32,817 bases of DNA from Candidatus Omnitrophota bacterium (GCA_015231405.1 JADGBR010000002.1:100730-133546), one strand, 5' to 3'; positions 2,748 to 31,600 are shown, counted from the first letter of the stretch. Notes: generated from the sequence alone by a model not told the origin. Translations and numbers: made by a program.

Positions 2748-2763
2748 TTCTGCCTCTCGTATT

Positions 2764-2860
2764 GGACCATAGACCATGGACCATGGACCTTCAGATATCC
2801 ATACATTAACCCGTGCACCCGTGCACTTTTCCAAACCCGTGCACCTGCCTACTGGCAGGC
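2764..2860. repeat. short degenerate tandem repeats and small hairpin between histidine kinase and hflX
   Basis: GGACCATAGACCATGGACCATGGACC (2764-2789); CCCGTGCACCCGTGCAC...CCCGTGCACC; CCTGCC-TACT-GGCAGG stem-loop. Confidence 0.7.
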
Positions 2861-12916: not shown

Positions 12917-15277
12917 TCAACTCCACTTCCAGTTCCTTACTTCCGGCAAATCTAGGCCGTTCTTATCGATATATTGTCTATGTTCTACGAGCTTATCCTG
13001 CAGCATCTGTTTCAGCTTAGCGCCCTTAGCGCCTAACTGCGGCAGCCATTTTATCGCATCCAGCACCAGATGGAATCTGTCGAGGCCGTTTAAAACCGTC
13101 ATGTCGAAATACGTGGTGATAGTGCCTTCTTCCATATAACCGTGAACATGCATGTTTCCATGGTTGGCGCGGCGGTATGTCAGCCGATGAACAAGCGTTG
13201 GATATCCATGGAACGCAAATATTACCGGCTTGTCCTTAGTGAATAATACATCGAAGTCTTGATCGCTCAACCCGTGCGGATGTTGTGTATTCGATTCCAG
13301 CTTCATCAAATCGACAACATTGACCACGCGAATTTCTAGATCGGGCAGATGTTTACGCAAAATTGAAACTGCTGCCATACACTCGAGCGTTGGCACATCG
13401 CCGCAGCAGGCCATCACTACATCCGGTTCCTTGCCTTGATCGCTCGAAGCCCATTGCCATATGCCGATTCCTTTGGTGCAATGTTCAATCGCCTCATCCA
13501 TAGTCAACCATTGAGGCGCCTGGTATTTGCCAGCGATCACAACGTTAACGTAATGCCGGCTCCTCAAACAATGGTCCCCCACCGATAGCAGGCAGTTGGC
13601 GTCGGGCGGAAGGTAAACGCGCACTATAGAGGCTTTTTTATTTACAACATGATCAATAAAACCCGGATCCTGATGAGTGAACCCATTATGCGCTTGCTGC
13701 CAAACATGGGAGGCGAGCAAGTAATTAAGCGAAGCGATTTCCCGCCGCCACGGCAATTCCGCGGTGACTTTCAGCCACTTGGCGTGCTGGTTAAACATCG
13801 AATCAATGATGTGAATAAATGCCTCATAGCAGTTAAACAGTCCATGCCGTCCCGTGAGCAGATATCCCTCGAGCCAACCTTCACATTGATGCTCGCTCAA
13901 CATCTCCATGACCCGGCCATCAGTTGCAAGAAATTCATCGTTCTTTACCGTGCGGGCTTCCCACTGCCGGTTGGTGACTTCAAAAACGCAATTCAACCGG
14001 TTGGAAAGCGTTTCATCAGGACCGAAAATCCGGAAATTTCGTTGCTCCCAATTGAGTTTAATCACATCACGCAGGAACTCTCCGAGCATATGCGCGTCGG
14101 AGGCCTGAACTGATCCTGGCGACGGCACATCCACTGCGTATTTTCGAAAGTCCGGCATAAGCAAATCATGCAGTAATAACCCTCCATTGGCGTGAGGATT
14201 GGCTCCCATCCTTCTCTCGCCCTTAGGTGCCAATTCGGCCAATTCAGGTAAAAGGCGGCCACTCTCGTCAAACAGTTCTTCAGGCTTATAGCTTTTCATC
14301 CAATCTTCAAGAAGCTTTAGATGGCCAGGATGCTCGCGATCAACCGATAGCGGAATCTGATGAGCTCGAAAGGTACCCTCGATCTGTAGTCCGTCGACCA
14401 CTTTCGGTCCAGTCCAACCTTTAGGTGAATTCAAAACGATCATCGGCCAGCGTGGTCGGGTGGCATCATTTTTGCCTCGCGCGCTGCTTTGTATTTTTCG
14501 AATTCCAGTAATGACTTCTTCCAAAGCAGCGGCCATGAGCTGATGCACCTTTTCCGGATCATCCCCTTCCACGAAATAAGGCGTCCAGCCGCAACCTCGC
14601 AAGAATTGCTCCAATTCTTCGTGCTCTATACGGGCTAACACCGTTGGGTTGGCTATTTTATAGCCGTTGAGATGCAAAATCGGAAGCACGGCCCCATCGC
14701 TTATCGGATTCAAAAATTTATTGGAATGCCAAGCAGTCGCCAAAGGACCTGTTTCTGCTTCTCCATCACCGACAACGCACGCAACGACCAGATCAGGATT
14801 GTCGAACGCGGCGCCAAAAGCATGGCTTAGCGAGTACCCTAGTTCTCCGCCCTCGTGAATTGACCCCGGGCACTCCGGAGAAACATGGCTGGAAACACCG
14901 CCAGGAAACGAAAATTGCATAAAAAGCTTTTTCAACCCCGATTCGTTTTGAGTAATGTCTGGATATACTTCGCTGTAAGTGCCTTCAAGATACACATTGC
15001 CCACCAGTGCCGGACCGCCATGGCCTGGGCCGGAAATGTAAATCATATCCAAATCATATTTCTTGATGACCCGGTTCAGATGCACATAAATAAAATTCTG
15101 GCCCGGCGTCGTGCCCCAATGCCCGAGCAGCATCGACTTCACATGTTCCTGCTTTAGCGGTCCCCGAAGTAAAGGATTATCGCGAAGATAAAGTTGTCCG
15201 ACCGAGAGATAGTTAGCGGCACGCCAGTAGGCATCCATCTTGCGGAGCAGTTCCGGTGAAGTAAATTTTGTATCAAT
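12917..15277 (-). CDS. xfp: xylulose-5-phosphate/fructose-6-phosphate phosphoketolase
   Basis: [77 protein letters not shown]. Probable non-ATG start (ATT at 15277); first ATG is at 15238. Confidence 0.95.
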
Positions 15278-15301: not shown

Positions 15302-16420
15302 CTACCCCGATGATTTCTTGGTTAAAGCCGCCATCAGCTTATCGAATGGCTCACTGAATTTCTTGACGCCTTCGTCTTCAAGAGTTTGAGTCACCTTATC
15401 AATGTTAATCCCGAGTTCGGGCAATTGCGCCATTATCAAGTCGGACTCCTTGACATTCTGTTCGAGACTTAATTTCGGATCGCCGTGATCACGATAATCA
15501 TCGATGGTTTCAAGGGGAACCGTGTTTACGGTGTCGGGGCCGATTATCTGTTCAATGTATTTTATATCGCTGTAGTCGGGGTTTTTAGTACTTGTGCTAG
15601 CCCAGAGGAGACGCTGTAGACGAGCGCCTTTATCAGCCAGCTTTTTAAATCTATTGCTGCCAAATATTTCTTTGTAGATTTGATAAGCCGCCTTAGCGCT
15701 CGATATAGCCACTTGTCCATGCGCCTTCTTGGCAATTAACGACTTCTTCTCTCCTGGCTCGAGGAATTTTTCTATCAGCGGGTCCACCAAAGTATCAATA
15801 CGACTTAAGAAGAAACTAGCCACCGAGGCGATATGTTTCACCGCCTTGCCTTGGGCTAGGCGCGCTTCCAGGCCCGCAATGTAAGCTTCCGCAACCTGCC
15901 GATAACGAGGCAATCCAAAGAGCAACGTCACGTTGACATTGATTCCTTCGCTGATAAGTTGCCGGATAGCAGGCAGGCCATCGGACGTCGCCGGGACTTT
16001 AATAAAAACGTTGGGCCTGTTCAGTGCGGCCCACAATCGTCGGGCTTCCACAATGGTACCTTTAGTGTCATGCGCCAGATGGGGGTTGACCTCCAGGCTG
16101 ACATATCCATCTTTGCCGTCAGTTTTTTCATACACAGGCCTGAACTCGTCAGCAGCGTTCTGTACGTCGCGCTGGCTAAGAGCTTCATAGATTGTTTTAA
16201 CATCATTTTTCTTGAGGGCCATATCACGAACGTCTAGGTCGTAAATATTACTTTCCGCCATTGCCTTCTCAAAGATGGATGGGTTCGAGGTCATCCCTCG
16301 CAGACCATCATCCTCGATCAAACGCCGAAGTGCACCGCTTGCGATCAGATCCCGCCGGATGTAGTCGAGCCAAATTGACTGACCGAGCGTTTCCAATTTC
16401 TTCAAAGGGTTGTCTTTCAT
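15302..16420 (-). CDS. tal: transaldolase
   Basis: GQSIWLDYIRRDLIASGALRRLIEDDGLRGMTSNPSIFEKAM; NVFIKVPATSDGLPAIRQLISEGINVNVTLLF. Confidence 0.94.
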   Translation of the reverse strand: MKDNPLKKLETLGQSIWLDYIRRDLIASGALRRLIEDDGLRGMTSNPSIFEKAMAESNIYDLDVRDMALKKNDVKTIYEALSQRDVQNAADEFRPVYEKTDGKDGYVSLEVNPHLAHDTKGTIVEARRLWAALNRPNVFIKVPATSDGLPAIRQLISEGINVNVTLLFGLPRYRQVAEAYIAGLEARLAQGKAVKHIASVASFFLSRIDTLVDPLIEKFLEPGEKKSLIAKKAHGQVAISSAKAAYQIYKEIFGSNRFKKLADKGARLQRLLWASTSTKNPDYSDIKYIEQIIGPDTVNTVPLETIDDYRDHGDPKLSLEQNVKESDLIMAQLPELGINIDKVTQTLEDEGVKKFSEPFDKLMAALTKKSSG

Positions 16421-16875
16421 TATTTTGCCTCCTGTTCCAGCGCTGTGACTTTCGCCAAGCGGCGTTTAAATCGCTCGTTGCCGCTAAATTCAGCTTGAAG
16501 AAATGTTTTAACTAATTCCCAGGCCAACGCATTGCCGACCACGAGGCCGCCAAGACAGATCATGTTCATGTCGTCGTCCTCGGTCCCCTGATGCGCCGAG
16601 AAATTATCATGGATCAGGCACGCCCGCACGCCGGTCACCTTATTGGCGACGACGCACGCACCAACACCACTGCCACATATGGCCACGCCCCGAGTGACGT
16701 CGCCATTCGCAACCGCCCTGGCCAGGGGAACCACAAAATCCGGGTAGTCATCTCCTGTAATCAACTCCTGGGCGCCAAAATCAGTCACCTCATAACCAGC
16801 GGATTTAAGCGCTTCAGTCAGCTGAACTTTCAACTCAAACCCGCCATGGTCCGCAGCTATGCCGATACGCATCAT
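16420..16875 (-). CDS. rpiB: ribose-5-phosphate isomerase B (RpiB/LacAB family)
   Basis: MRIGIAADHGGFELKVQLTEAL...YPDFVVPLARAVANGDVTRGVAICGSGVGACVVANKVTGVRACLIHD. Confidence 0.92.
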   Translation of the reverse strand: MMRIGIAADHGGFELKVQLTEALKSAGYEVTDFGAQELITGDDYPDFVVPLARAVANGDVTRGVAICGSGVGACVVANKVTGVRACLIHDNFSAHQGTEDDDMNMICLGGLVVGNALAWELVKTFLQAEFSGNERFKRRLAKVTALEQEAK

Positions 16876-17091
16876 TTTCCCTCCGCAATTTACGCTTTAA
16901 AACTACAATATTCCCATTATCGGTTATAATAAAACAATACCGGCCGGTACCAATAGGCTGTATCTGCTTTTATTTGACTTTTTTCCCACTACTAACGATT
17001 AAGTCATTTAAAACAAATGTTCTAATTTGTCATAGATCATAATTCGTTTATCTTAATGATAATGTTATTGGTAAAATCAAAGTATGGTCAA

Positions 17092-17107
17092 TTGCACCTA
17101 GGTGTAA
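17092..17107. promoter_or_regulatory. palindromic motif copy 1, upstream of rpiB-tal-xfp
   Basis: TTGCAC-CTAG-GTGTAA; matches TTRYAC-N4-GTRTAA. Confidence 0.6.
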
Positions 17108-17192
17108 TTAGTGATTATGGATGCTTAATGATAGAGAAATGCACCGAATTGCGAGGGGCTACAAACAAAAACCCTATTTCTACACCTTCCAG

Positions 17193-17265
17193 CATCCGTA
17201 TCTAATAAGTCATCCTCATCACTGAGCGATATAACTATCTTTTGCTTTTTCGCCATCATTTACCC
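17193..17265 (-). pseudogene. third miaB 5' fragment (copy C)
   Basis: Minus strand GGGTAAATGATGGCGAAAAAGCAAAAGATAGTTATATCGC...GAGGATGACTTATTAGATACGGATG corresponds to MMAKKQKIVI...DEDDLLDTD of MiaB. Confidence 0.88.
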
Positions 17266-17615
17266 AGCATCATCTGCATTGATATAAAGAACAACAGGAC
17301 GCCGAACATCTTTTTTAATAAAGGCCCCGGCACATACTGCACGAAATGGGCGCCGATGAATCCGCCGAAAAAGAAACCCAAACATACGAAAACGGCGATC
17401 GAAAGGTTCACATTTCCGTTCTGGTAATAACGCAGAGCCGCCAGAAGCCCTACCGGAGCAACCATGATAGCAAGGGTCGTTCCCTGGGCCTGGTGCTGGG
17501 TAAGGCCAAAGAGGTAAACCAGCGCGGGTATAATTATGATGGCTCCGCCTATACCGAAAAGCCCGCCGAATATACCCGCGACAAGACCTAACGCCGCGTA
17601 CAGTGCCTGTGTCAT
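17256..17615 (-). CDS. sulfite exporter TauE/SafE family protein (short form)
   Basis: MTQALYAALGLVAGIFGGLFGIGGAIIIIPALVYLFGLTQHQAQGTTLAIMVAP; start at 17615 preceded by GGAGGGGAGA. Confidence 0.88.
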   Translation of the reverse strand: MTQALYAALGLVAGIFGGLFGIGGAIIIIPALVYLFGLTQHQAQGTTLAIMVAPVGLLAALRYYQNGNVNLSIAVFVCLGFFFGGFIGAHFVQYVPGPLLKKMFGVLLFFISMQMMLGK

Positions 17616-17626
17616 TCTCCCCTCCG

Positions 17627-18064
17627 TCAACCCATGGCGCAAGTTCCGCCGCCAAGCTTTGGTTTGTACAGTTTTTTATTGTAAGGCAACTTCATCAAAA
17701 GCATGCCCATTATACAGCTATCCGTTACGCCCGAGATAGTCCTGACCTGGCGTGACAGAGATACCACGCCCTTTCCCTTAACAACAGGCAACCCTTCTTA
17801 GACAGAATCCTTGCTATGCGCCCGGCTGAATTCAAGCGCGGAACGCACGTTCAATAGCGCGACGCGCTGATCATTCCGGGCCGATGATACGGCCTCTTTC
17901 GGAGAAACCATCTCAAGAAGAGCGGCCTCGCCTTTTTGATTGACGCGGACGATATTGTCTATATTAAAAGGCTTGGGGATAATTTTGGCGCGCATGTTCC
18001 CGGCGAACGTTTCTTTATTGGTTTCTTTTATTTTCGATAAGCCCACGCTTAATCCAGGCAGCAT
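17627..18064 (-). pseudogene. broken ORF of unknown function with an in-frame TAA
   Basis: 88-aa ORF (17798-18064) ending ...SKDSV*, then open in the same frame EGLPVVKGKGVVSLSRQVRTISGVTDSCIMGMLLMKLPYNKKLYKPKLGGGTCAMG* to 17627. Confidence 0.45.
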
Positions 18065-18197
18065 TACTCGGTACCCGGATTAAATTCACAACTTATTGGT
18101 CCCTATTGGTTACTGCTTCCGTATAACCGGCAGCGGCTGCGTTCTGATTCTACCAAAGCTTGACCTGGATTCCAAGAACGCTTACTTCTTTTCTGCC

Positions 18198-18743
18198 CTA
18201 CGGGATATACATCAGGAACAACACAAAAATAATGGATGTAATTATTATATAAACACCCGGATCTATATGGATCAGTTCTGGAACAGTTAGCTTTCCCCTT
18301 TCTCCTATACTTGCCATTTTTATAAATTTTGGAGCTGTCAAGGCATAGACATAGGAACCTATGACCATCCCGAAAATTCCCCAGGCTGCATCCCAGCTTC
18401 CCTGGCCAAGCGCCGCAGCTCCTGTTCCGGGGCAATATCCCCATAATCCGAATCCCACGCCAAATACCAAGCCGCCTATGATATTGTTCGCGTAATGCGT
18501 TGGTTTTATGTGAGGGCGCACCATGCCGAATTTTCCAAGGACGTATATTATTATGCTGCCAACCAGGATCGCGGAAATGATGACGCGGATGACAGTCAAA
18601 TCCGTTAATCGTAAGGCGCCGATCAGTACGTTATAATCTGATACACCGGCTTTATGGAGCAGGAATCCAAAAGCTGTTCCAAATATCAGGCCAGAGGCCC
18701 AATTTCCAGGTTTTCCGGGTGTATCCTGTTTTGCCATCAGCAT
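18198..18743 (-). CDS. YeeE/YedE (DUF6691-type) membrane protein
   Basis: IIGGLVFGVGFGLWGYCPGTGAAALGQGSWDA. Confidence 0.88.
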   Translation of the reverse strand: MLMAKQDTPGKPGNWASGLIFGTAFGFLLHKAGVSDYNVLIGALRLTDLTVIRVIISAILVGSIIIYVLGKFGMVRPHIKPTHYANNIIGGLVFGVGFGLWGYCPGTGAAALGQGSWDAAWGIFGMVIGSYVYALTAPKFIKMASIGERGKLTVPELIHIDPGVYIIITSIIFVLFLMYIP

Positions 18744-18747
18744 TGTT

Positions 18748-19326
18748 TTATCTCCCGAATAACGGGATCGCCACCGCCATTCCCCCGATAAAAAAGAATA
18801 TCATCGCGATCCATGATCCAACCGACAACTGCATTGTGCCGCTAATGCCATGGCCACTGGTGCATCCTCCGGCGATACGGGCCCCAAAGGCCAGAAAGAC
18901 CCCGCCAATAATAGCCGTAATGATCCTTGATGTGCCGCTATCGGCTCCGAAACGCTGTACCCAGGTATCGGGGAGTAATTGTGCATGTATAGTTCCCCCG
19001 GACCAGGCAGCAAGGAAGCCGCCAATAATGACTCCGACAAAAAGCATCACTTCCCATTCAATGATCGGTTTTTTGTTTTTAAAGTATTCCAGGCGTTTGG
19101 TCAGGCCGGGAGCAAAGATCATGCCCAGCATTCCTGAGATCCGGGCATACGCAGTACTGATGCCAAGGGGTTTATCTGAGATCAACACTGTCATAGCAGC
19201 AAGGATACCGATCAATGCACCAGAAACATAGGGAGACCAGTGCTTAGGCATTTGATCAGCGCCCGCCTCAGCGGCAAGCACACAGTCCGGGATACAAAGC
19301 AATATCATTACAACCAATATTTTCAT
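18748..19326 (-). CDS. YeeE/YedE family membrane protein (putative thiosulfate/sulfur transport)
   Basis: FLAFGARIAGGCTSGHGISGTMQLSVGSWIAMIFFFIGGM. Confidence 0.9.
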   Translation of the reverse strand: MKILVVMILLCIPDCVLAAEAGADQMPKHWSPYVSGALIGILAAMTVLISDKPLGISTAYARISGMLGMIFAPGLTKRLEYFKNKKPIIEWEVMLFVGVIIGGFLAAWSGGTIHAQLLPDTWVQRFGADSGTSRIITAIIGGVFLAFGARIAGGCTSGHGISGTMQLSVGSWIAMIFFFIGGMAVAIPLFGR

Positions 19327-19333
19327 AGTTCAC

Positions 19334-20725
19334 CTATTTTTCGATCGGCAATTCGGCTTTTATCCATGCCTTCCAACTGCCCGGCACATTTTTTACATCC
19401 AGAAAGCCTGCCTGCTTCAGCAAGCTGCTTGCGATACTGGCACGGTAACCTGTGTTGCAATACGTCGCTACCGGTACTTTCTTATCTAACTCGCCCATGT
19501 GCTTGGGCAGATCGGGAAGATAGATGTGTTTGGCATTGGGAATATGGCCGCTTTTCCATTCCAACGGCGACCTGACATCCAGCACTTGCACTGTCTTGTG
19601 GTTTCGATAAAGTTCATGTACGTCTATTTGCCGGATATGATCCATTGTCAATCCAGCCCGGACCCATGAACCCATCCCGCCGACCAGATACCCTAAAATG
19701 TTCGTAAATCCGGTCCTCCGGAAGAGCGAGACAACTTCATCAAGTTTATGATCACTTCTAAGTACGATTGCCAGAGGCTGTTCTGGGTCCAGCATCCATC
19801 CAGCCCAGACGGACAATTCTCCTTTATCTTCGATGTTGATCGCATCGGCAATATGCCCGCCGCCAAATTCCAACATCGACCTGGTATCCACAATGGCACA
19901 TTGCTTCGAACGGATCAGTTGTTCAAATTCTTTGGCCGTGCAGCCGGGAACGATCGGAGTGTTGTTCTCGATGCGAGCGCCTTGGGTATTCGTAATTTTC
20001 AAACGCGGGTAGTAAGTCGGCCGGGGTGTTGTATTTCTGACGGATAGATCCTTGAATTCCCCAAACGAGCTGCACTTCATGTATGGATTATGTGAATGTT
20101 CATAACCTATTGTTGAACTGAAGCGGTCCCCGATCGCAGGCCCGCACGCTGACCCATAACCGTGAGTTGGATGAATGATGACTCCGCCACTCAGTTTAGC
20201 ATAGACATTCGTTAAGGTATCATATTGCTTGTGCAGCATTTCCTCGAATCGCTTCTGGCCGAGCAAGTCGCTTCGGCCTACAGCATTGACTAGAAGTGAG
20301 CCTCCCGTAAAAACGGCATAAGGATCGTCAGGACTTGATCTTTCATGGATCAGGACAGCTATATGTTCCGGCGTGTGCCCAGGTGTGTTACGCGCCGTTA
20401 ATGAGATCGACCCCAGATCGATCTTGTCTCCTTCCCGAAGTTGATCCAGCTCGTAGCCATAAGTATCTTCATCCGAGTGTCCTGCATGAATGATCGCGTT
20501 TCCGACCCCGGCAGCTAACTGGCGAACTCCGCTTACAAAATCTTCATGGATATGCGTCTGAATAATGTGGCGGATAGTTACGTTGTGTTCTCTGGCAAGC
20601 TGGATGTAGGCGTCGCAATCAGGCCGCGGGTCAATGACTGCGGCTAACCCTGATGCCTCGTCTCCTATTACGTAACTAATATCTCCAATACCTTTCGAAA
20701 CCACTCGTTCAAAGACTAAGCTCAT
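19334..20725 (-). CDS. MBL-fold metallo-hydrolase with C-terminal rhodanese domains (persulfide dioxygenase-like)
   Basis: IQTHIHEDFVSGVRQLA, NTPGHTPEHIAVLI; rhodanese segments IVDTRSMLEFGGGHIADAINI and VLDVRSPLEWKSGHIPNAKHI...YCNTGYRASIASSLL. Confidence 0.9.
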   Translation of the reverse strand: MSLVFERVVSKGIGDISYVIGDEASGLAAVIDPRPDCDAYIQLAREHNVTIRHIIQTHIHEDFVSGVRQLAAGVGNAIIHAGHSDEDTYGYELDQLREGDKIDLGSISLTARNTPGHTPEHIAVLIHERSSPDDPYAVFTGGSLLVNAVGRSDLLGQKRFEEMLHKQYDTLTNVYAKLSGGVIIHPTHGYGSACGPAIGDRFSSTIGYEHSHNPYMKCSSFGEFKDLSVRNTTPRPTYYPRLKITNTQGARIENNTPIVPGCTAKEFEQLIRSKQCAIVDTRSMLEFGGGHIADAINIEDKGELSVWAGWMLDPEQPLAIVLRSDHKLDEVVSLFRRTGFTNILGYLVGGMGSWVRAGLTMDHIRQIDVHELYRNHKTVQVLDVRSPLEWKSGHIPNAKHIYLPDLPKHMGELDKKVPVATYCNTGYRASIASSLLKQAGFLDVKNVPGSWKAWIKAELPIEK

Positions 20726-20833
20726 GATCCACCTCAGTTAAATTTTTTCCCTGCCTCATTCAAGTAGACACAACAATGCTAATTTTCCCTTACACGGCCA
20801 CAAAGGACCCTCTCTCCGCCAGTTGAGTATGGT

Positions 20834-21244
20834 CTAAGTACTATTAATCAAATACACTACAAGAAAGATCCCGGCTGCAAAGACAGATGTGGTTAACAGT
20901 ATGGCAAGTACCGATGAAGGTTGGAATGTATCCTCGTCTATTTGTCTCTCAACCTTCTTGTACCTGACAAATGCCAAGAGAGCCATCACCGTGCCAAGAC
21001 CGACAAGGAATATCCCAGCGATCGCAGAATATCCATGAGAAGGAGGCAGCGTATTTTCAATATCAGCTTTTCCCAGAATCAATGACATTTGCTTTACGAA
21101 CAACGCAAACTTTTCAACAACAAAACCAAATGCCATTATCCCGATGCATGTTCTTATCCACGCAAGAAATGTCCTTTCATTCGCCATGTGTACACGGCGA
21201 TCACGAACTTTTAGAGAGCTCTTATCTTCAAGCATCTCTGACAT
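20834..21244 (-). CDS. DUF202 / YidH family membrane protein
   Basis: VHMANERTFLAWIRTCIGIMAFGFVVEKFALF. Confidence 0.9.
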   Translation of the reverse strand: MSEMLEDKSSLKVRDRRVHMANERTFLAWIRTCIGIMAFGFVVEKFALFVKQMSLILGKADIENTLPPSHGYSAIAGIFLVGLGTVMALLAFVRYKKVERQIDEDTFQPSSVLAILLTTSVFAAGIFLVVYLINST

Positions 21245-21329
21245 ATAACCTACCTTTGATCACACAGGATACCGCCGCGAATACCGGCTACCCAACTGTC
21301 CCAAACACCGCTTCCATTTCCCCTCGGTC

Positions 21330-22208
21330 CTACCCGTTCACAATTCTGCCCCCATTAGGATGCAAAACCTGCCCGGTCATATAGGAAGAATCCTCTGATG
21401 AAAGGAAAACGTAACACGGCGCCACTTCATCCGGCTGTCCTGCCCGGCCCATTGGCGTGTTGGTCCCGAATTTCTTGACCTTTTGAAGAGGAAACGACGC
21501 CGGTATGAGGGGCGTCCAGATCGGACCCGGAGCTACGCCATTGACACGTATCCCGCGCTTCGCTACCGCCAGCGCGAGAGATCGCGTGAAGGCGACGATC
21601 GCCCCCTTGGTCGACGCATAATCGATCAACTCCTTGTGCCCGAGATACGCTGTGACCGACGTAGTGTTGATGATGGCGCTCCCCTTTTTCATGAATTTGA
21701 GTGCCTCCCGTGACAGATAGAAGTAGGCGAAAATATTCGTTCGGAAGGTACGGAGCAGTTGATCGTCGGTAATGTCTTCGAGACGATACCTGAGGTGTTG
21801 TTCGGCGGCATTGTTTACCAGTATATCCAGTCTGCCGAATTCCTTTACCGTTCGCTCAACCGACCTGCGGCAGAAGTCGGGTCTACCGACATCTCCTCGA
21901 AGCAAGAGGCAATTTCGTCCTTCGGCTTCGACGAAACGGCGCGCGGCCGCCGCGTCTTCTGTCTCTTCCAGATAGACGATGGCGACATCAGCGCCTTCCT
22001 TCGCAAAGCTGATCGCCACCGCGCGGCCGATGCCGCTATCCCCGCCGGTGATGAGGGCGGTTTTTCCATCCAGCTTACCGGCGGCCTTATACTTTTTCAT
22101 TTCCGATTGAGGAGCAGGTCGCATCAGGGATTCTCGCCCCGGCTGACGCTTCTGATGTTGCGCCGGTTGCTTTGCCCTGAAACGCTCTTCGGATATCTTG
22201 CGGATCAT
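21330..22208 (-). CDS. SDR-family oxidoreductase (general-stress type)
   Basis: ALITGGDSGIGRAVAISFAKEGADVAIVYLEE; YASTKGAIVAFTRSLA; GQVLHPNGGRIVNG. Start MIRKISEERF at 22208 with GGAGAAA upstream. Confidence 0.92.
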   Translation of the reverse strand: MIRKISEERFRAKQPAQHQKRQPGRESLMRPAPQSEMKKYKAAGKLDGKTALITGGDSGIGRAVAISFAKEGADVAIVYLEETEDAAAARRFVEAEGRNCLLLRGDVGRPDFCRRSVERTVKEFGRLDILVNNAAEQHLRYRLEDITDDQLLRTFRTNIFAYFYLSREALKFMKKGSAIINTTSVTAYLGHKELIDYASTKGAIVAFTRSLALAVAKRGIRVNGVAPGPIWTPLIPASFPLQKVKKFGTNTPMGRAGQPDEVAPCYVFLSSEDSSYMTGQVLHPNGGRIVNG

Positions 22209-22228
22209 TACACTTTCTCCGTTGTTTT

Positions 22229-22345
22229 GTATGACGATCCTTGAAATGAAAGAATAATTAATACCGAAAGCATCGCTACGAGCAGCCCAGGGACTGCCCA
22301 TACTACTTTCCCGTACGCAGATCTGATCTATTTTAGATCATTCAT
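22229..22345 (-). pseudogene. degraded paralogue of the 39-aa membrane ORF at 31370-31489
   Basis: MNDLK*IRSAYGKVVWAVPGLLVAMLSVLIILSFQGSSY aligned to MNNLKWIKSKDGKVGWAILWLLGVPLPILFIIFILRGCQ; TGG to TAG at codon 6. Confidence 0.65.
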
Positions 22346-22401
22346 TCGACCTTCTCTCAACCTTAAGTTGGCATACTAGCAAGGTGTCAAGAATGAATCA
22401 A

Positions 22402-22417
22402 TTGTACCGAAGTATAA
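22402..22417. promoter_or_regulatory. palindromic motif copy 2, upstream of the small ORF relic/SDR
   Basis: TTGTAC-CGAA-GTATAA. Confidence 0.65.
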
Positions 22418-22513
22418 TATAAACATTTAAAATAAGCGTGCATGCTGAATCAATACCATGGCGTTGTCACTAACTAACTATAATATATCAAGTTGCAAAA
22501 GTGTTTGCGCAGA

Positions 22514-23818
22514 TCACCTCGCGCGGTGCAAATACTTCTTAAGATCATCTATACATATACGTTTATTGACAGCGTCTTGGAGCCTTTGACAGCGTCTTGG
22601 AGCCTTTTCCCTTCCACAACGACCGAATCGAAACAGACCGGCATCGCGATTTGTCCGGCCGGTATAATAGTCCCGGAGGATCTGAGCGGCGATGACGCTG
22701 AAGATAATACCATTCCCACCGTAACTCAGTGCGAAAGAGACGTGCCGGAACCTGCGATGGACACCGATGTAGGGAAGCCCGTCTTTCGTTTCACCAAAAG
22801 TACCTGCCCAGGCATAAGCCACTTCCAACGGCTGATCCGGGAACAGCCTCCCAAACTTCTTCACCAGGGTTCGGGTCTTTTGTGAAATTAACGCGTCCCG
22901 GCGCTTCGCATTCACAAAGTCTTCGTCTTCGCCACCGACGATCACGCGCCCTTCGGCAGTGGTCCGAAGATAGAGATAAGGCATGCCGCTTTCCCAAATA
23001 AGGCACTGCTGATACCATCCCGGGATCAGAGGGAGAGGCTCACTGATGAGCGCATAAGTGCTCTTCAATGTTCCCGCCCCGGTGTTAAGGAGAGCATTTG
23101 ACTCGAACCCCCCCGCTATCACCGCCCGCCGGGCGGTTATCAGGCACCCGTTGTGCGTGCTGATACGAACTCCTCGGCGGGTTTCCTCCACACACGTTAT
23201 TTTCGTCCGGTCGTAAACTTCAAGGCCAACGCGTTTCCCCGCAACGAAGAGGCCGTGAGTGAGGCGGTGGGGATCAACCTGGCCGCCGTCTTTGGAAAAG
23301 AGCGCGGCGGGACGGGAAAACGGAAAGCGTGCCCGAACCGCCTTAGCGTCGTAGAACTCCAACTCAATACCCATTTTCCGCCGCAGTCGGAATTCCTCCC
23401 GCAGTTCAAGTATTTCACGCTTATGACGGGCCAGAAACAAACTGGGCCTCCGCTCGAAGCCGCAGTCTATCTTTAAGCGCGCGGCCAGTTGCTCAAGCGT
23501 ACTGATCGCACCGCAGCATAACTGATAGCTTCGGGACGCTGCGGCCGGACCGACCTTGTTGATCAACTCACTTAGAGGCACATCAATTTCGTATTGAAGC
23601 AGAGCTGTACTCGCACTGGTGCTTCCTGTTCCGATGTCTCGCTTATCAACGACGATAGTTTTCACTCCGGCTTCAGCCAGATGTACCGCCACCAATGCCC
23701 CGGTTATCCCGCCCCCGATGACGACCGCGTCACAGGACACATTGCGTTGTAGCGAAGGGTAGTTCTCCGGGAGGCCATTGTTGACCGACCAAAATGGATG
23801 ACTCGAAGTGAGCTTCAT
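22514..23818 (-). CDS. FAD-dependent (DAO-type) oxidoreductase
   Basis: CDAVVIGGGITGALVAVHLAEAGVKTIVVDKRDIGTGSTSASTALLQYE; TFGETKDGLPYIG. Confidence 0.9.
   Translation of the reverse strand: MKLTSSHPFWSVNNGLPENYPSLQRNVSCDAVVIGGGITGALVAVHLAEAGVKTIVVDKRDIGTGSTSASTALLQYEIDVPLSELINKVGPAAASRSYQLCCGAISTLEQLAARLKIDCGFERRPSLFLARHKREILELREEFRLRRKMGIELEFYDAKAVRARFPFSRPAALFSKDGGQVDPHRLTHGLFVAGKRVGLEVYDRTKITCVEETRRGVRISTHNGCLITARRAVIAGGFESNALLNTGAGTLKSTYALISEPLPLIPGWYQQCLIWESGMPYLYLRTTAEGRVIVGGEDEDFVNAKRRDALISQKTRTLVKKFGRLFPDQPLEVAYAWAGTFGETKDGLPYIGVHRRFRHVSFALSYGGNGIIFSVIAAQILRDYYTGRTNRDAGLFRFGRCGREKAPRRCQRLQDAVNKRICIDDLKKYLHRAR
22568..22607. repeat. exact 20-bp tandem duplication inside the oxidoreductase 3' end
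   Basis: GACAGCGTCTTGGAGCCTTT x2. Confidence 0.95.
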
Positions 23819-23851
23819 GGCACTTTGTGATCCTCTAACCCTATGCGCTTT

Positions 23852-25948
23852 CTATGCTAATGTCCGAACAAACTTTTCCCGGGACCATTGGCGCGTCTTT
23901 GCGGCGGCAATAAAACTGTCTTTGTCGCCGGCATCCACGACTCCCGCGTCGTGTCCGACACCTGCCTTCTTCAAGAGTGCTTCGCCGCCGGTGTCAACCG
24001 CGATCGCCTTGAGATGACCGAAAGCATCCCGCACGAAGTCGATCGCAGCGCTTTCATTCGATAGCTCCTTTCGGCCTTCGTCGGAGAGGATAACGGCGAC
24101 CGCGTCGAAGATCACAGAAGGCATCCCGGCAAGTTGTCCGTCAGCCGTCAATATGGATCCATCGGCGAGCTTCGCTCCGCCAACTTTGGGTGCGACGATC
24201 TTCACGGAAGCGCCCGCATCGGTCGCGGCCTTTTTGATCCTCTTGATAACAGCGCCGTCTGAACCATCCGCGATGAGGATGCCGATCGCGCGACCCATGA
24301 GCGTGTCTTTCATCTTGCCGATGATCTGCAACGCCGGTGAAGGCTTCCTCTCGTCAACAGGCGCTGCCGCCTCCGGCTTAGTGGGAAGTTTATTGAAACC
24401 GAGGCCCGCGGCGACCCGCTTGGCGAGATCTTCCTCGATATGCCGCAGATGGCCAACGATCGCCTCACGCACATGGACGTGTTCGACCTTTGAAAGCTCA
24501 AACACTAATGCCGAAGCGATGTGCGCCTGCTCATACGCGGTCTGACTGAGATAGAACTGCCGCGCCTGGCTGTAATGGTCGGCGAAGCTCTCGGCGCGGA
24601 CGCGGCCTTTCCCGCCGGTTTCAGTTGCCGCTAGGCTGCGAAAGCCGCTGGCCGGTGTTTCTCGCGGCGAACTATCGGATAGGGTGTTCGGCTCATACGA
24701 AACACGGCCCGAGGGCTGCCCCATTTGCATATGTCCGTCGCGCTGCTGGTTGCCGAACGGGCACTTTGGCGCGTTGATCGGGATCTGGTGGAAATTGGGC
24801 GATCCCAAGCGCGAAAGTTGTGTGTCGAGATACGAGAATAGACGGCCCTGCAACAGCGGATCATTCGAGAAATCGATGCCCGGAACAATATTTGCGGGAC
24901 AATAGGCCACCTGTTCGGTTTCAGCGAAGAAATTATCCGGCCAGCGGTCCAGCACCATGCGCCCGATCACTTTCAAGGGCACCAGTTCTTCCGGGATCAG
25001 CTTGGTCGGGTCCAGATGGTCAAACGGAAATTTATCCGCTTCTTCCTCGGTAAAAAGCTGAACCGCGAATTCCCACTCCGGGAAGTTGCCCGACGATATG
25101 GCCTCGAACATGTCGCGTCGGTGGAAGTCTTGATCAGCGCCTGAGATCTTGACGGTCTCATCCCAAATGGTGGACTGCAGGCCGAGCTTCGGACGCCAGT
25201 GGAATTTGACGAAGGTTGATCCCCCTCTGTCGTTGATCAGCCGGAAACTATGTACACCAAAGCCCTCGATCATCCTGAGCGAACGCGGTATGGTGCGATC
25301 GGACATTATCCACATCACCATATGCATGGATTCGGGCGTGAGCGAAATGAAATCCCAGAAGGTGTCGTGCGCGGTCGCCGATTGCGGAAAGGCACGATCG
25401 GGTTCCATTTTTACGGCATGGATGAGATCGGGGAATTTGATGGCATCCTGGATGAAGAATACCGGAACGTTATTGCCGACCAGGTCCCAGTTGCCTTCCT
25501 TCGTGTAAAACTTGACCGCAAATCCCCGCACGTCACGCGGGGTGTCTACCGAACCGGCACCGCCCGCAACGGTCGATATACGTGTAAACACCGGTGTCTT
25601 CTCCCCTACTTCGGTAAGTATCCTGGCGGTGGTGTATTTCTTCAATGAGGCGGAGAGCTCGAAGAATCCATGCGCGCCCGTTCCTCGCGCATGCACGATA
25701 CGCTCGGGGATCCGCTCATGATCGAAAGACGTGACTTTTTCGCGAAGGATGAAATCCTCAAGAAGCGTCGGGCCGAGCGGATTGGCCTTAAGCGAGTTTT
25801 GGTTATCGGACAGCGCGACGCCTTGGTTCGTGGTGAGCGGGGGGTGGTCTCCGCCGGCGGCCTGGTGCAGCTCGCCGCCGATAGCCGGTTTCGAGTCTCG
25901 CCTGGAAGCCGAGCCTCCAGAATTACTTGGTGTCTTTTTTTTGCTCAT
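23852..25948 (-). CDS. katE: large-subunit catalase (HPII type) with C-terminal DJ-1/GATase-like domain
   Basis: [71 protein letters not shown]-terminal [40 protein letters not shown]. Confidence 0.94.
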
Positions 25949-26032
25949 GATCGATCTCCTTTCTTAGCAACGCCTCTTTCTTAATAATGATCTTTTTTAA
26001 TCGTTCCACCATTATGGAAATATTCAAAATGA

Positions 26033-26054
26033 AATCAATTTCACCAAGGGATTA
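26033..26054. promoter_or_regulatory. degenerate palindromic motif copy, upstream of katE
   Basis: Minus strand TAATCCCTTGGTGAAATTGATT; about 16 of 22 positions agree with TTATACTTCGGTACAATTGATT. Confidence 0.35.
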
Positions 26055-26434
26055 CTGACGGACCGGATATTTTATCTTTAACGCGGCCGTGCGGTTCTGA
26101 TACATTGGATAAGTCCTTTTGGCTTATCACTGACAAAGGAGGGGTCTTTTGCCATCGATAGCCGCCTACGGCGTCCGCGTACCCTCTCGAAAATCCGATG
26201 GCGGCATTCATGTTTTCTAATAAATAAGAGGTTGTAAAGATCTACGTAGGCGTTCCGACATCGACGTGCATCTCATCATACACATTACCATCCGCCGCGA
26301 CACGAAATAAAACCGGGGAGAAAGTCACCGGTGTGGAAGACGAGGCGAGTATTACCTTTCGGAAGAGGTCAATGTCACCTCGGACTTCCGATTTTCTTCA
26401 TTATCCTTTTTCCTTCTTTATTATACTTGCTTTG

Positions 26435-26833
26435 CTATTTTTTATGAGCCGGCTTGCCGTCGATAACCGCGTTAAGCACTTTCTGGATCCCGAAATATTT
26501 GACCCAATTTTCCTCCCTGAACAGGTAAAACAGGATTATTATCGCTGCCAGGAACTCCATCCCTCCCAGAACTAATGCGGTGATGAATTTCACCTGGACG
26601 CTCCAAAGCGAATATTTAAAGAACGCCGTGTGGATCAAGAACAATCCGCTTACCAGAAGAATAAAGGAAAACATTACGAACATGATATTTACAAAGAATA
26701 CCCTTACGCTCCTGACACCTCCGACATACGCCTCTGCGGCTTTGATCTTCAGCAACGCTGCTCTTCCTTTATACCTCTTCACCATACCGAGTATCATAAG
26801 CGAAGAAATGATCCTGCGAATTATTTTTTCCAT
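26435..26833 (-). CDS. phage-holin-family-like (DUF1469-type) membrane protein
   Basis: KIKAAEAYVGGVRSVRVFFVNIMFVMFSFILLVSGLFLIHTAFF plus a second hydrophobic helix; start MEKIIRR at 26833. Confidence 0.55.
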   Translation of the reverse strand: MEKIIRRIISSLMILGMVKRYKGRAALLKIKAAEAYVGGVRSVRVFFVNIMFVMFSFILLVSGLFLIHTAFFKYSLWSVQVKFITALVLGGMEFLAAIIILFYLFREENWVKYFGIQKVLNAVIDGKPAHKK

Positions 26834-26847
26834 GCCTGCCCTTAAGG

Positions 26848-27195
26848 TTAGCTTCGTTTTGATCCCATGACATATCCTAGCAGCAGGGAAACAACCGCTG
26901 TTCCGGCGATGTATGCCCATGGATCCTTGTGCACTCTCTTATCAGCTTCGCATGCGGCTTTTTTTACTTTTTCTTCCCCTTCGGCAAGTGTATTCTGAGC
27001 CAATTGCCTTACCTTATCGTACATTTGCTTGCCTTGTTCCGCGCCAGCGCCCATAGCCTGTCTGATATGGGAATATTTATCCGTGATGAGCCCTTTAATT
27101 TCATCCTTCTTCTCTTTGGCCGCCTCATTGAGCAGCTCAAGGGCTTCCGTGATCTTAGCGCTGCTTGTACCTGTTTTCATTCCTATGTCCGACAT
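26848..27195 (-). CDS. DUF883/YqjD-like membrane-anchored protein
   Basis: Charged helical region then VHKDPWAYIAGTAVVSLLLGYVMGSKRS, a DUF883-type C-terminus. Confidence 0.82.
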   Translation of the reverse strand: MSDIGMKTGTSSAKITEALELLNEAAKEKKDEIKGLITDKYSHIRQAMGAGAEQGKQMYDKVRQLAQNTLAEGEEKVKKAACEADKRVHKDPWAYIAGTAVVSLLLGYVMGSKRS

Positions 27196-27321
27196 AATAA
27201 CCTCCTGTTTATATCTTTTTGATCATCAATGCGCGACAGATATTCTCCGCTTGGCTTGCGCGCGCCAAGAACAAGCGTTCGTGTTGCTTCTTATTCTAAA
27301 TATCATGAAAAGTAAAAGCAA

Positions 27322-27337
27322 TTGTACTCGGGTATAA
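27322..27337. promoter_or_regulatory. palindromic motif copy 3, upstream of the DUF883-like gene
   Basis: TTGTAC-TCGG-GTATAA. Confidence 0.65.
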
Positions 27338-27547
27338 CAGGCGGATAATAATTCGGAAAGATCCAACAAGGAGTAGATTTCATAAAATTCGCGAGTCTTG
27401 ATATATCGAAAAAGATATTTCGGCTGAACGATCTTTTCGACCTCCCCTTCGGGATGGCTCTTTGTAAATTCCTCCGGAAAACTTGCCTTTACTTTAAGTG
27501 CCCTTAAACCCGGCGCGCGCGGTGTCGCGAAAATGCGCAGCATTTTT

Positions 27548-28066
27548 TCATACTGAAATCTTCTTAAGCTTGATCAATGAATCTTTTGTGAATGCGGGAA
27601 TATCAGCCGGAGAACGGCTCGAAACAAAATTTCTGTCCACCACCACTTCCTGATCCGCATACTCGGCGCCCGCATTTTTTATATCCTGAATAATTGATTT
27701 CCAGCCCGTTACCCTGCGTCCCTTTAAAAGGCCGGCCGTAATCAATAACTGCGCACCGTGGCAAATAAAAAAGATAGGCTTATCTGTCGCGCCAAATTGT
27801 TTCACAAAATTAACCACCTCGTCATTGCTTCTCAAACGATCTGGAGAATATCCGCCCGGGATAAAGATCGCGTCAAAGTCATCAGGTCTGACCTCGCTCG
27901 CAGTCTTATCTATTTCAACCTTAACACCCGTCTTCGCCCCGGTCACAGCCCCCATCTTAACTCCTATATTAACGAGACCATGCCCTGCATCTTTGAAGGC
28001 TTTTGCCGGTTTTACATATTCCGAATCCTCGAACATATCGTCTATTAAAACTCCAACTCTGGCCAT
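27548..28066 (-). CDS. DJ-1/PfpI family protein (general stress protein 18-like)
   Basis: MARVGVLIDDMFEDSEYVKPAKAFKDAGH...DAIFIPGGYSPDRLR...KPIFFICHGAQLLITAGLLKGRRVTGW. Confidence 0.93.
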   Translation of the reverse strand: MARVGVLIDDMFEDSEYVKPAKAFKDAGHGLVNIGVKMGAVTGAKTGVKVEIDKTASEVRPDDFDAIFIPGGYSPDRLRSNDEVVNFVKQFGATDKPIFFICHGAQLLITAGLLKGRRVTGWKSIIQDIKNAGAEYADQEVVVDRNFVSSRSPADIPAFTKDSLIKLKKISV

Positions 28067-28292
28067 AAGTCCTCCTTATCTTTTGTACTTAAAGAACTCG
28101 ACTTGCCCATTTTTTTATTTTTCTAGAACGCACCCCATGACCTTTAACAGCCCTAACGCACATCTGCACCAAATGCATAGAAGACTTTAACCGTTCTCAC
28201 CATTCCCAGCAATTGCCTAATTTCTGTTTTTTAATGACAACTCTATGCCGTTGTAACAAGCTGCATTATAAAACCATTAATAAGAGGGTCAA

Positions 28293-28308
28293 TTGTACCT
28301 GGGTATAA
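28293..28308. promoter_or_regulatory. palindromic motif copy 4, upstream of PfpI gene
   Basis: TTGTAC-CTGG-GTATAA. Confidence 0.65.
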
Positions 28309-28315
28309 ATAGCCT

Positions 28316-29020
28316 TCATCCTTTAAAGATAATGATCAAAAGACGTCCACAGAACTGCTTCTTTACCCTCCCTTTAATGTTTAACTTATCCAGAAGCTCT
28401 GTCATCTCTTCTAGCCGGAAACCTTTCCTTATAGATAACAAAGCGTCGTTTCGAGAGTGTTTATTCTTTATGAAACGCGTCAGAAGATAGCATAGTAAAA
28501 ATACGGCAGGTGATCTCGTTAGATCATTTATTATCAAAGCATGCCGGGATTTGTCCAAGAGATGCAGCACCGCTTTTTCGATCTCACCTCGGTTGAAATG
28601 ATGGAAGACCATCGAAGCAATAATAATATCGGACTGAGCCAGATCTTTATCGAAGAGATCTCCTTGCGAATATCTGATCCCCTCTATTTTTTTACGCGCT
28701 TGTGCCAATTCGACGATCCTGGTATTTTTATCTATGCCGTTATATCTCACGGAAAAACCGTTATCCCTCGCCCACCTAAAAATAGTCGGCGCCATATCGC
28801 CAATACCGCATCCCACATCCAGTATCTCCGCTCTTCGCTCCCTGGGCCAGGAACTCATAGCGATATTAAGAGCCGTCCGCACTGCCCTGTGGCCGCCTCC
28901 CCATCTATTTACAAATCGTATGAAGCGAAAACTGTCAAGAATATCGTCATCCGTCATATCTGGCATATCGAGATATTCTTTTGAGCAGCTTCTTACGTTA
29001 AAATACTTTATCGGGAGCAT
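28316..29020 (-). CDS. class I SAM-dependent methyltransferase (PKS-associated)
   Basis: EILDVGCGIGDMAPTIFRWARDNGFSVRYNGIDKN...FHHFNRGEIEKAV; probable start MLPIKYF overlaps the upstream stop. Confidence 0.88.
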   Translation of the reverse strand: MLPIKYFNVRSCSKEYLDMPDMTDDDILDSFRFIRFVNRWGGGHRAVRTALNIAMSSWPRERRAEILDVGCGIGDMAPTIFRWARDNGFSVRYNGIDKNTRIVELAQARKKIEGIRYSQGDLFDKDLAQSDIIIASMVFHHFNRGEIEKAVLHLLDKSRHALIINDLTRSPAVFLLCYLLTRFIKNKHSRNDALLSIRKGFRLEEMTELLDKLNIKGRVKKQFCGRLLIIIFKG

Positions 29021-30201
29021 AACTGATCGAATACTCTTTCGTAAAGTTTCAAGCATTCTTCCTTATACGCATTTTCCACCTTATAAGTTGATTCGGCGAC
29101 AGATCGACAGTATCCGCAACCTGAACAGTTACCCGACACCGAACACTCTGCACCTACCATCTTTGTCAAAAAATCACCGGGGATCTCTGCAGAGTCTAAA
29201 GATACGGGCTTACTTTTTAACGGATAGAGCATGCCCATTTTTTTCAATAAACTGATCATATCTCTGCAGCCTGCATTACTTTTCAGAAAAGAGAAAAAAT
29301 ATTTTATTTGCCATCCAAAATCTTTGGCTGTCTCTTCCCTAAAGCCATATTGCTGGATCAGATCGAGTAAGTTGGAGGGTGACGATCTCTCGGCATAAGC
29401 CTTCACACGTTGTATCATAAGATCGGTCGGCGCGTTACGTTCAAGCAATTTAAAATCATGATATCCCATATCCTCATAACGGCTGAGATCTTCAGGACGT
29501 ATCCATTGAGACCTTATGATCAGGCTGGGGTCTTTAAGGATTTGATAGGAACACTTTAATGCGCAGTAATCCACAAAAGGGTTCTTCTCCCCCGCCGTCG
29601 AACCGTGAGAAAGTCCTGCCATATGATACGGCTGCATAGGGCACCTGGAGAGGCATGAAAAATTCGTAATTAACTGCAGCCTGCAAGAGACTGCTTTTCT
29701 GATCTGCTCTAGCACAGTAAAGTTCCTATTAATGGAGAAAGATTCAAGAGTAAGCATGTCGGCACCCATCTCTTGCCAGAATCGAGCCCGCTCGGGTGAG
29801 TCGATATTAGCAAAGATGCCGACTTTCAGAAAGAAATGGGGATACTGTTTTTTTATTATTTCAGCAAGATACGGGATCGATACTGTCAGGGAATCTACTT
29901 TTAGATCTGTGAGCCGATCCAAAAGTTTATGTATGCTAGTGATCCCTTTTTTACTCCATTCCCTGTTTCCAAGACATGCTGAATTGAGAAGATATGTGAA
30001 TTTGATCTTTTTTTTGTGCGCATGATGTATATGAGATCTCAATGCATTGGCGCTAACACCCTGAGTCGTATAACTGGCCCTGCCGCCTCCCACAAGATCA
30101 TTTGTGAGCTTCCCATACACATCTTCAACGGGATAAGCGGCGATCTCATCCAGAAAGTCATTGTCAAAGTTCGTGGCGACCGAAAGCCTTGTTTCATTCA
30201 T
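29008..30201 (-). CDS. peptidase-U32-like Cys-rich protein
   Basis: TIM-barrel-like LKVDSLTVSIPYLAEIIKKQYPHFFLKVGIFANIDSPERARFWQEMGADMLTLE; CLSRCPMQ...YCALKC and C-terminal CSGCGYC clusters. Start MNETRLS at 30201. Confidence 0.7.
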   Translation of the reverse strand: MNETRLSVATNFDNDFLDEIAAYPVEDVYGKLTNDLVGGGRASYTTQGVSANALRSHIHHAHKKKIKFTYLLNSACLGNREWSKKGITSIHKLLDRLTDLKVDSLTVSIPYLAEIIKKQYPHFFLKVGIFANIDSPERARFWQEMGADMLTLESFSINRNFTVLEQIRKAVSCRLQLITNFSCLSRCPMQPYHMAGLSHGSTAGEKNPFVDYCALKCSYQILKDPSLIIRSQWIRPEDLSRYEDMGYHDFKLLERNAPTDLMIQRVKAYAERSSPSNLLDLIQQYGFREETAKDFGWQIKYFFSFLKSNAGCRDMISLLKKMGMLYPLKSKPVSLDSAEIPGDFLTKMVGAECSVSGNCSGCGYCRSVAESTYKVENAYKEECLKLYERVFDQLCSR

Positions 30202-31246
30202 AAGAGAGAAGCGCCTCATAGCCTGAAAATCCCGCGCCAAAAGAAGCCATCAATACTAAATCGCCGGTGTTTAACGGTGAATTTTCGAGAATATCTCTTA
30301 ATACGTATAGAACCGTCGGAGAAGACATGTTTCCATAATCATAAAGAACTTTCCTTGAGTGATCAAGATCCCCCTCTTTAAGATCCATCGCTGCCTGGAT
30401 CGCATCAAGCACTTTTCTGCCTCCCGGGTGCATGGCCCAGAATTTGACGTCTTCCCGGCTTAACTCATTCCTTTCAAACAATGTGTGTGTGATCTCTTTT
30501 ACCAGGGCGGAGGCAATTTCCGGTACGACATCTTTGATCACATTGCGTAGCCGCGAATTTTCTGTCCGAAGGCGTAAGTTATCTCGATGGTGCGGCTCTA
30601 TCTTAGACTTAAAATCCATTATTCTGAGACCTTTTACCCCTGCTTTATTCGTGAGAAGGCATGCAGCAGAGCCGTCTCCGAATATGGAATTTGAAAGAAT
30701 AAGCTCGGGATCGTCACCCCAAAAAAGGGCGGATGAACATATCTCCGTAGAAATTGCGAGAGCGTAATCATCTTTGTGAGTATTTAGATAATTATGGCAG
30801 GCTTCTAGCGCAGGCATTGCCCCACCGCATCCCATACCAACTATATCCAGGGCGAAAATGTCCGGAGACAAGCCTGCGCCTTCTACGATATATGAGGTAA
30901 GCCCTGGGCATAGATAACCTGTGCAGGTCGAGACAACTATGCAACCGATCCTATCTTTAGATATACCGGATCCTTTAATGCACTTTTCTACGGATGCTAC
31001 TGACAGCCGCTCAGCCGATCCCTGGAATCGCTTGATAAGAAGGTCCTGGTCCTCTACAAAGAAGTCTTCTATTTTATCGATTGAAAAATATCGATAACCT
31101 ATTCCCTTGTCGGATAAAAACCGTTCATACAGGATATCCTCACGCCGGGAGAGCTTCTTGGCATGGCGTAATGTATCCAGCGATTCTCTCTGCGACAGCT
31201 TAAATCCCGGATTCGCGGTAGAGATATTTATGATCTTGGCATTCAT
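30194..31246 (-). CDS. type III polyketide synthase (chalcone/stilbene synthase family)
   Basis: Nucleophile Cys in DIVGMGCGGAMPALEAC; His in FWAMHPGGRKVLDAI; Asn in LYDYGNMSSPTVLYVL; FGAGFSGYEALL. Confidence 0.93.
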   Translation of the reverse strand: MNAKIINISTANPGFKLSQRESLDTLRHAKKLSRREDILYERFLSDKGIGYRYFSIDKIEDFFVEDQDLLIKRFQGSAERLSVASVEKCIKGSGISKDRIGCIVVSTCTGYLCPGLTSYIVEGAGLSPDIFALDIVGMGCGGAMPALEACHNYLNTHKDDYALAISTEICSSALFWGDDPELILSNSIFGDGSAACLLTNKAGVKGLRIMDFKSKIEPHHRDNLRLRTENSRLRNVIKDVVPEIASALVKEITHTLFERNELSREDVKFWAMHPGGRKVLDAIQAAMDLKEGDLDHSRKVLYDYGNMSSPTVLYVLRDILENSPLNTGDLVLMASFGAGFSGYEALLSYE

Positions 31247-31369
31247 CTGCTATTTTGCATCATTTTACTTTATTGTCTATTAACTTATATATATGCATCG
31301 ATCCTACCTCTAAACATTGCCGCACCCAAAGCGGCCGAGGTGATAATGACACTAAAAAAACGGTTTAAT

Positions 31370-31489
31370 TTATTGGCATCCTCTAAGAATAAAAATGATA
31401 AATAATATTGGAAGCGGTACTCCGAGCAACCACAGAATTGCCCATCCTACTTTTCCATCCTTAGATTTAATCCATTTTAGATTATTCAT
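31370..31489 (-). CDS. 39-aa putative membrane miniprotein
   Basis: MNNLKWIKSKDGKVGWAILWLLGVPLPILFIIFILRGCQ; ATG at 31489 preceded by GAGGAGGT Shine-Dalgarno; homologous relic at 22229-22345. Too short for the ORF track. Confidence 0.75.
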   Translation of the reverse strand: MNNLKWIKSKDGKVGWAILWLLGVPLPILFIIFILRGCQ

Positions 31490-31545
31490 TCGACCTCCTC
31501 TCTTCCTCAATATGGTATTCTAGCTAGGCGTCAAGAATGAATCAA

Positions 31546-31561
31546 TTATACCGAAGTATAA
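31546..31561. promoter_or_regulatory. palindromic motif copy 5, divergent between miniprotein and phosphatase
   Basis: TTATAC-CGAA-GTATAA, perfect arms. Confidence 0.68.
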
Positions 31562-31600
31562 TATACACATTGTAAAGAGTCGGGTATATTGTAGACTGCC

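Follow-up and report, generated by a model that had tools for sequence, protein, structure and literature searches.

A palindrome of 16 bp recurs upstream of genes on the minus strand of a 32,817 nt stretch of DNA from a Candidatus Omnitrophota bacterium (GCA_015231405.1, JADGBR010000002.1:100730-133546; hereafter the window), and it raises the question of which protein reads it and what response it controls. The distribution of this box, the promoter attached to it and the genes beside it support a previously undescribed regulon, as the initial annotation of the window had proposed, and extend it to many members of the Omnitrophota. The box is most probably read by a StyR/FixJ-type response regulator of the NarL/FixJ family, a reading to which a probability of roughly 0.86 is given on the basis of sequence comparison.

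Occurrence and conservation of the box

The pattern TTRYACNNNNGTRTAA is found in the window at exactly the five places first reported: TTACACCTAGGTGCAA (positions 17092–17107), TTATACTTCGGTACAA (22402–22417), TTATACCCGAGTACAA (27322–27337), TTATACCCAGGTACAA (28293–28308) and TTATACTTCGGTATAA (31546–31561). The scan returns six matches for five copies because the copy at 31546 is self-complementary, and it returns none in 100 dinucleotide shuffles. A 22 bp matrix, trained on 154 sites that all come from genomes other than that of the window, gives its top five scores to the same five copies (22.3–34.0 bits), compared with a maximum of 9.3 bits over 30 block-shuffled windows. Each copy points at the next gene, and the common orientation described earlier thus holds. 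The extended minus-strand consensus is exact in four copies and has one mismatch in the copy at 27316; its AATTGAYY part is a -35 region and not operator (see below). The copies had all been placed in non-coding or gene-start regions. The exception is the copy at 27322, which is within an open reading frame (ORF) of 105 amino acids (27226–27543) that has no Pfam match and may be spurious. The copies at 22402 and 31546 are not independent, since alignment shows that the entire promoter-leader has been duplicated. A degenerate sixth copy, TAATCCCTTGGTGAAA (26039–26054), had been noted upstream of katE. It has its own -35 and -10 hexamers but is merely a probable weak site because its score of 9.6 bits barely exceeds the null maximum.

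In the genome of the window (G000; 3.66 Mb in 93 contigs) there are 22 sites with up to two mismatches and only four more with three, and a reversed-pattern control gives 6 compared with 26 overall. The sites cluster in gene islands. When about 85,000 species genomes across GTDB are scanned for exact matches, 78 stretches are found, nearly all from Candidatus Omnitrophota; a few carry the labels Elusimicrobia, Firestonebacteria, Auribacterota or UBP3, and one is from Flagellimonas. The Flagellimonas match (L067) is inside an ORF with no regulatory module adjoining and is probably due to chance. Exact sites are present in 41 of 384 Omnitrophota genomes (108 sites, as the sum of per-genome counts), where the reversed pattern has none. 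Only 11 of 141 sites are inside ORFs of at least 100 amino acids, in DNA of which 83.5% is coding. The sharp fall-off past two mismatches, the avoidance of coding DNA and the conservation across the phylum uphold the proposed regulon; they are also the outcome of the genome scan, upstream-enrichment and relative-conservation checks that the initial annotation had suggested. A literature search on the letters of the box and on Omnitrophota regulators gave nothing relevant, and no described Omnitrophota regulon was found in it. A scan of viral contigs shows one box, at L141 1612–1632, on an IMG/VR contig classed as viral.

Promoter anatomy

Every copy in the window adjoins a -35 hexamer, which is TTGCTT at 27316 and TTGAYY elsewhere, and is followed 16–18 bp further downstream by a -10 candidate, although the candidates at 17062 and 22373 have only four of six matches. 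The AATTGA extension is therefore part of a promoter and not of the operator, in line with what had first been suspected. The conserved columns of 176 distinct sites are TTATACC-NN-GGTACAA, TTGATT or TTGACC, a spacer with a short T-rich patch, and a TATAAT-like hexamer. A -10 with at least five of the six bases of TATAAT is present in 136 of the 176 sites, compared with about 20 in shuffled spacers, and 130 are at a spacer of 16–17 bp; this hexamer was absent from the search pattern used to collect the sites. At class II activated sigma70 promoters the operator abuts or overlaps the -35, with its centre near -41 to -44. The anatomy seen here would place the palindrome centre near -43 relative to the predicted start, a class II activator position. 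Some sites have divergent promoters, with a -35 on either side of the box (e.g., C24:10062 and C21:35503). Column 13 of the box, in the promoter-proximal half-site, is C in 84% of the 176 sites, where perfect symmetry gives T. The C may avoid a spurious -10, since T would make TATAAT inside the box.

The candidate regulator

Clustering of the genes around boxes reveals one outstanding cluster, that of receiver-domain proteins. Full regulators, with an N-terminal receiver (REC) and a C-terminal GerE/LuxR helix-turn-helix, are encoded immediately ahead of the box, and single receivers immediately after it. A second cluster consists of PAS-HisKA-HATPase kinases encoded ahead of the regulator. Pairs of histidine kinase (HK) and response regulator (RR) are present in most loci, the gene order HK-RR-BOX-REC is recurrent, and a receiver gene immediately follows the box in 25 loci. 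Some genomes have the box ahead of a REC-HK-RR operon, an arrangement that would give autoregulation. The regulator is a member of the NarL/FixJ family by domain content (Response_reg, 3e-26; GerE, 4.6e-16) and by its closest solved structures, StyR 1yio (1.6e-62) and FixJ (1.5e-53). Its phospho-acceptor, Asp56, is invariant in 23 sequences, and the regulators are strongly conserved, with a mean column identity of 78%. The kinase core is closest to FixL chimeras. Its PAS domain is LOV-like by sequence but is without the photoactive Cys (GRNYFLLYG).

A comparison of recognition helix and half-site was made at loci chosen by regulator score alone. Strong RRs, i.e., those with more than 320 bits, have a high-scoring box downstream in 11 of 12 cases. 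Weaker paralogs have no TTATAC box (0/11), and in five of the 11 its place is taken by a different palindrome: TTGGACTAAGGTCCAA (two loci), TTGGACCAAAGTCCAA, TTGGACTAAAGGCCAA and TGAGACCAAGGTCTTA. The helix is LQTIKVHR in the TTATAC class, EKTVKVHR or EKTIKVHR in the TTGGAC class and IKTVKIHR in the TGAGAC class. The TTGGAC box with its promoter is found in exactly three of the 384 genomes (G029, G186 and G271), all of which have EKT regulators; this count is partly circular because the variant was first seen near those regulators. The covariation of helix and half-site is the strongest argument for direct reading of the box by the regulator. In the paralogous HK-RR-REC modules of L193, L194, L195, L203 and L204 the homologous place is occupied by TTGGAC-N4-GTCCAA or TGAGAC-N4-GTCTTA.

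Regulator and box also occur together. Among the 384 genomes 32 have both, 9 have the box only, 11 the regulator only and 332 neither (Fisher p = 3e-29, with related genomes treated without phylogenetic weighting). In the window's own family the box is found only in G000 and G015, and the regulator only in the same two. The three genomes that have a strong RR and no exact box (G190, G251 and G304) have a box with 1–2 mismatches beside the RR module. The G000 regulator (G000:C32:26840-27457, about 206 amino acids, E 1.4e-109) is the sole hit at 1e-20 and has an LQTIK-class recognition helix.

Several points weigh against assigning the box to this regulator, among them the unweighted Fisher test and the partial circularity of the TTGGAC count. 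Nine motif-bearing genomes have no detectable regulator of the StyR/FixJ type when all candidates are scored. One of these, G036, has the module kinase and receiver, with a transposase-like ORF near the contig end (L058, G036:C51, 11344–11901) after the kinase, where the regulator is expected; the remaining box-only genomes may reflect gaps in metagenome-assembled genomes or another regulator. The G000 regulator follows a different kinase, a CheB-CheR-PAS fusion, and a receiver, and there is no box beside its gene, where the contig ends about 115 bp downstream. In this locus (L169, G000:C32, 3883–8551) the CheB-CheR-PAS-histidine kinase fusion, the receiver and the FixJ-type regulator are consecutive, and the regulator carries a C-terminal extension.

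The earlier suggestion of a site for a dimeric regulator is upheld, with the StyR/FixJ-type protein as the most likely candidate from these comparisons. A phosphorylated dimer would bind the two 7 bp half-sites of the operator TTATACC-NN-GGTAYAA and would contact RNA polymerase from the class II position, with its centre at about -43; such contact is proposed from the position of the operator directly next to the -35 of a sigma70-type promoter (TTGAYY, a 16–18 bp spacer and a TATAAT-like -10). In relatives, the PAS kinase with the FixL-like core would pair with the regulator, and the box would drive the single receiver, which probably acts in FixT-like feedback or as a phosphate sink. The response to the presumed physiological signal would activate genes for oxidative stress, the cell envelope, carbon metabolism and regulation.

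The StyS-StyR and TodS-TodT systems of aromatic degradation provide the closest comparison for the operator. StyR and TodT recognise ATAAAC-N4-GTTTAT (PMC5874301), a palindrome that has the same AC-N4-GT core and 6 bp arms, but the half-site here is TTATAC. Phosphorylated StyR activates from about -40 (PMC2442086), a position similar to the one predicted here, and Lys175 and Val176 are kept (KV or KI in KVHR). The helix, however, is LQTIKVHRG/S in place of EVTVKVHRH in StyR, with His179 replaced by Gly, Ser, Ala or Cys. The regulator is thus outside the StyR/TodT operator subgroup, as neither His179 nor ATAAAC is kept. It also differs from StyR and TodT in having many genome-wide targets instead of a catabolic operon, and in the extra receiver domain of the system. 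The likeness to FixL-FixJ-FixT of Caulobacter and Sinorhizobium consists of the FixJ-type regulator, the adjoining PAS kinase and the single receiver linked to the box. FixT is a single-domain receiver under FixLJ control and a feedback inhibitor of FixL (PMC7078487). Unlike FixL, the Omnitrophota kinase has the LOV-like PAS described above and its haem binding is only putative; unlike Caulobacter FixT, the receiver has no 4-Cys motif, and a FixT-like inhibition is likewise putative.

Other readings of the box were compared with the StyR/FixJ-type assignment. Another dimeric regulator, CRP/FNR-like or TetR/GntR-like, could own the operator and control the FixJ-type module as no more than a target. 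In favour of this, the module's receiver gene is among the targets, and nine motif genomes have no regulator. Against it, the regulator is encoded immediately ahead of the box and the two co-occur, and in paralogs a change of recognition helix goes with a change of half-site at the equivalent position. The geometry is also one that StyR-type regulators bind, and no other transcription-factor family is recurrent among the gene clusters near boxes. Another owner is accordingly considered unlikely. Slightly less probable again is that the regulator represses, the box occluding the -35 until stress relieves repression. The operator does directly adjoin the -35 hexamer, but from its upstream side, and it leaves the -35/-10 spacing free; the hexamer is TTGAYY and not TTGACA. 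StyR activates from about -40 (PMC2442086), and repression from the position seen here would be unusual.

It is much more doubtful that the box and AATTGA form the promoter of an alternative sigma factor with no operator. The spacing to the -10 is fixed, but the box is a palindrome and is followed by a normal -35/-10 pair with 16–17 bp between the two hexamers. The least probable reading takes the copies for what is left of a dispersed repeat or mobile element. The duplicated promoter-leader of two of the five window copies and the clustering of sites in gene islands would fit such an origin. However, conservation over the 176 sites is limited to the box, the -35, the T-rich spacer patch and the -10, coding DNA is avoided, and different orthologous genes retain the box in different genera.

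Predicted targets and features of the window

The G000 targets in the window are rpiB-tal-xfp, the SDR gene, small membrane-type proteins, PfpI, a miniprotein with a type III polyketide synthase (PKS) and probably katE. Further targets in G000 are a 1-Cys peroxiredoxin, a low-affinity iron permease family protein, an amino-acid permease, an alpha/beta hydrolase, MlaE, and PKD-domain and DUF5666-like proteins. Regulatory targets include RpoN and a sigma54 activator (L051, G000:C21, 7555–8970 and 9494–10861), which suggests a cascade into sigma54 genes, as well as a kinase with an RsbRD_N-like domain and a PAS kinase. In other genomes receivers make up 35 of 134 targets, and autotransporters, MlaE, ferritin-like proteins, DUF3309, entericidin and CusF are also present. 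Genes for MlaE, for DUF5666-like, PKD and autotransporter proteins and for members of the iron permease family retain the box in several genomes. From the target list, a general stress and envelope response is the favoured role, held with moderate confidence.

The RpoS, SigB and PhyR-EcfG stress responses have similar targets, i.e., catalase, PfpI, SDR and small membrane or envelope proteins. They differ from the present case, where an activator would act at sigma70-type promoters with no dedicated sigma factor. It is possible, though somewhat less likely than not in our estimate, that many Omnitrophota rely on a FixJ-type activator with receiver feedback, instead of a dedicated stress sigma factor, as their global stress and envelope switch, and that co-evolution of its box and recognition helix has produced distinct specificity classes. 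If true, the pairing of LQT with TTATAC and EKT with TTGGAC would allow the code of this regulator family to be read. The Omnitrophota are nearly all uncultured, and the defined operator, promoter and regulator can be taken to a laboratory host for testing. Box-bearing genes of unknown function become candidates for one response, and the natural regulator-operator pairs are suited to the study of DNA choice by StyR/FixJ-type proteins.

The following features of the window are on the minus strand unless stated. The operator at 17092 is followed by the -35 TTGACC (17086–17091), a weak best -10 candidate TAACAT (17062–17067, spacer 18), rpiB as first gene of the operon (16420–16875), transaldolase (15302–16420) and the xfp phosphoketolase (12917–15238). 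The operator at 22402 has TTGATT (22396–22401) and TAGTAT (22373–22378, spacer 17) upstream of a miniprotein relic and an SDR oxidoreductase (21330–22301). The katE catalase gene (23852–25948) has the -35 TTGATT (26033–26038) and the -10 CATAAT (26011–26016, spacer 16). The operator at 27322 is upstream of two small membrane-type proteins, with TTGCTT (27316–27321) and TAGAAT (27293–27298, spacer 17); the 115-amino-acid ORF at 26848–27195 had been labelled DUF883 and gives no Pfam match. The DJ-1/PfpI family gene (27548–28066) is preceded by TATAAT (28265–28270, spacer 16) and TTGACC (28287–28292) next to the operator at 28293. A PAS histidine kinase in the window (1731–2834) has no box, and no link from it to the regulon was made.

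The operator at 31546 is possibly bidirectional. On the minus strand it has TTGATT (31540–31545) and TAGAAT (31517–31522, spacer 17) upstream of a 39-amino-acid miniprotein, MNNLKWIKSKDGKVGWAILWLLGVPLPILFIIFILRGCQ (31370–31489), and the type III PKS; on the plus strand a possible -35 TATACA (31562–31567), with TATATT at 31585–31590, is directed towards a DSPc gene at 31601. The promoter-leader duplication spans 22345–22417 and 31370–31561. The 31546 copy encodes the membrane-type miniprotein, and that at 22402 encodes a relic of this miniprotein with a stop at codon 6. Positions 28316–31246 consecutively encode the type III PKS, a peptidase U32-like ORF and a methyltransferase.

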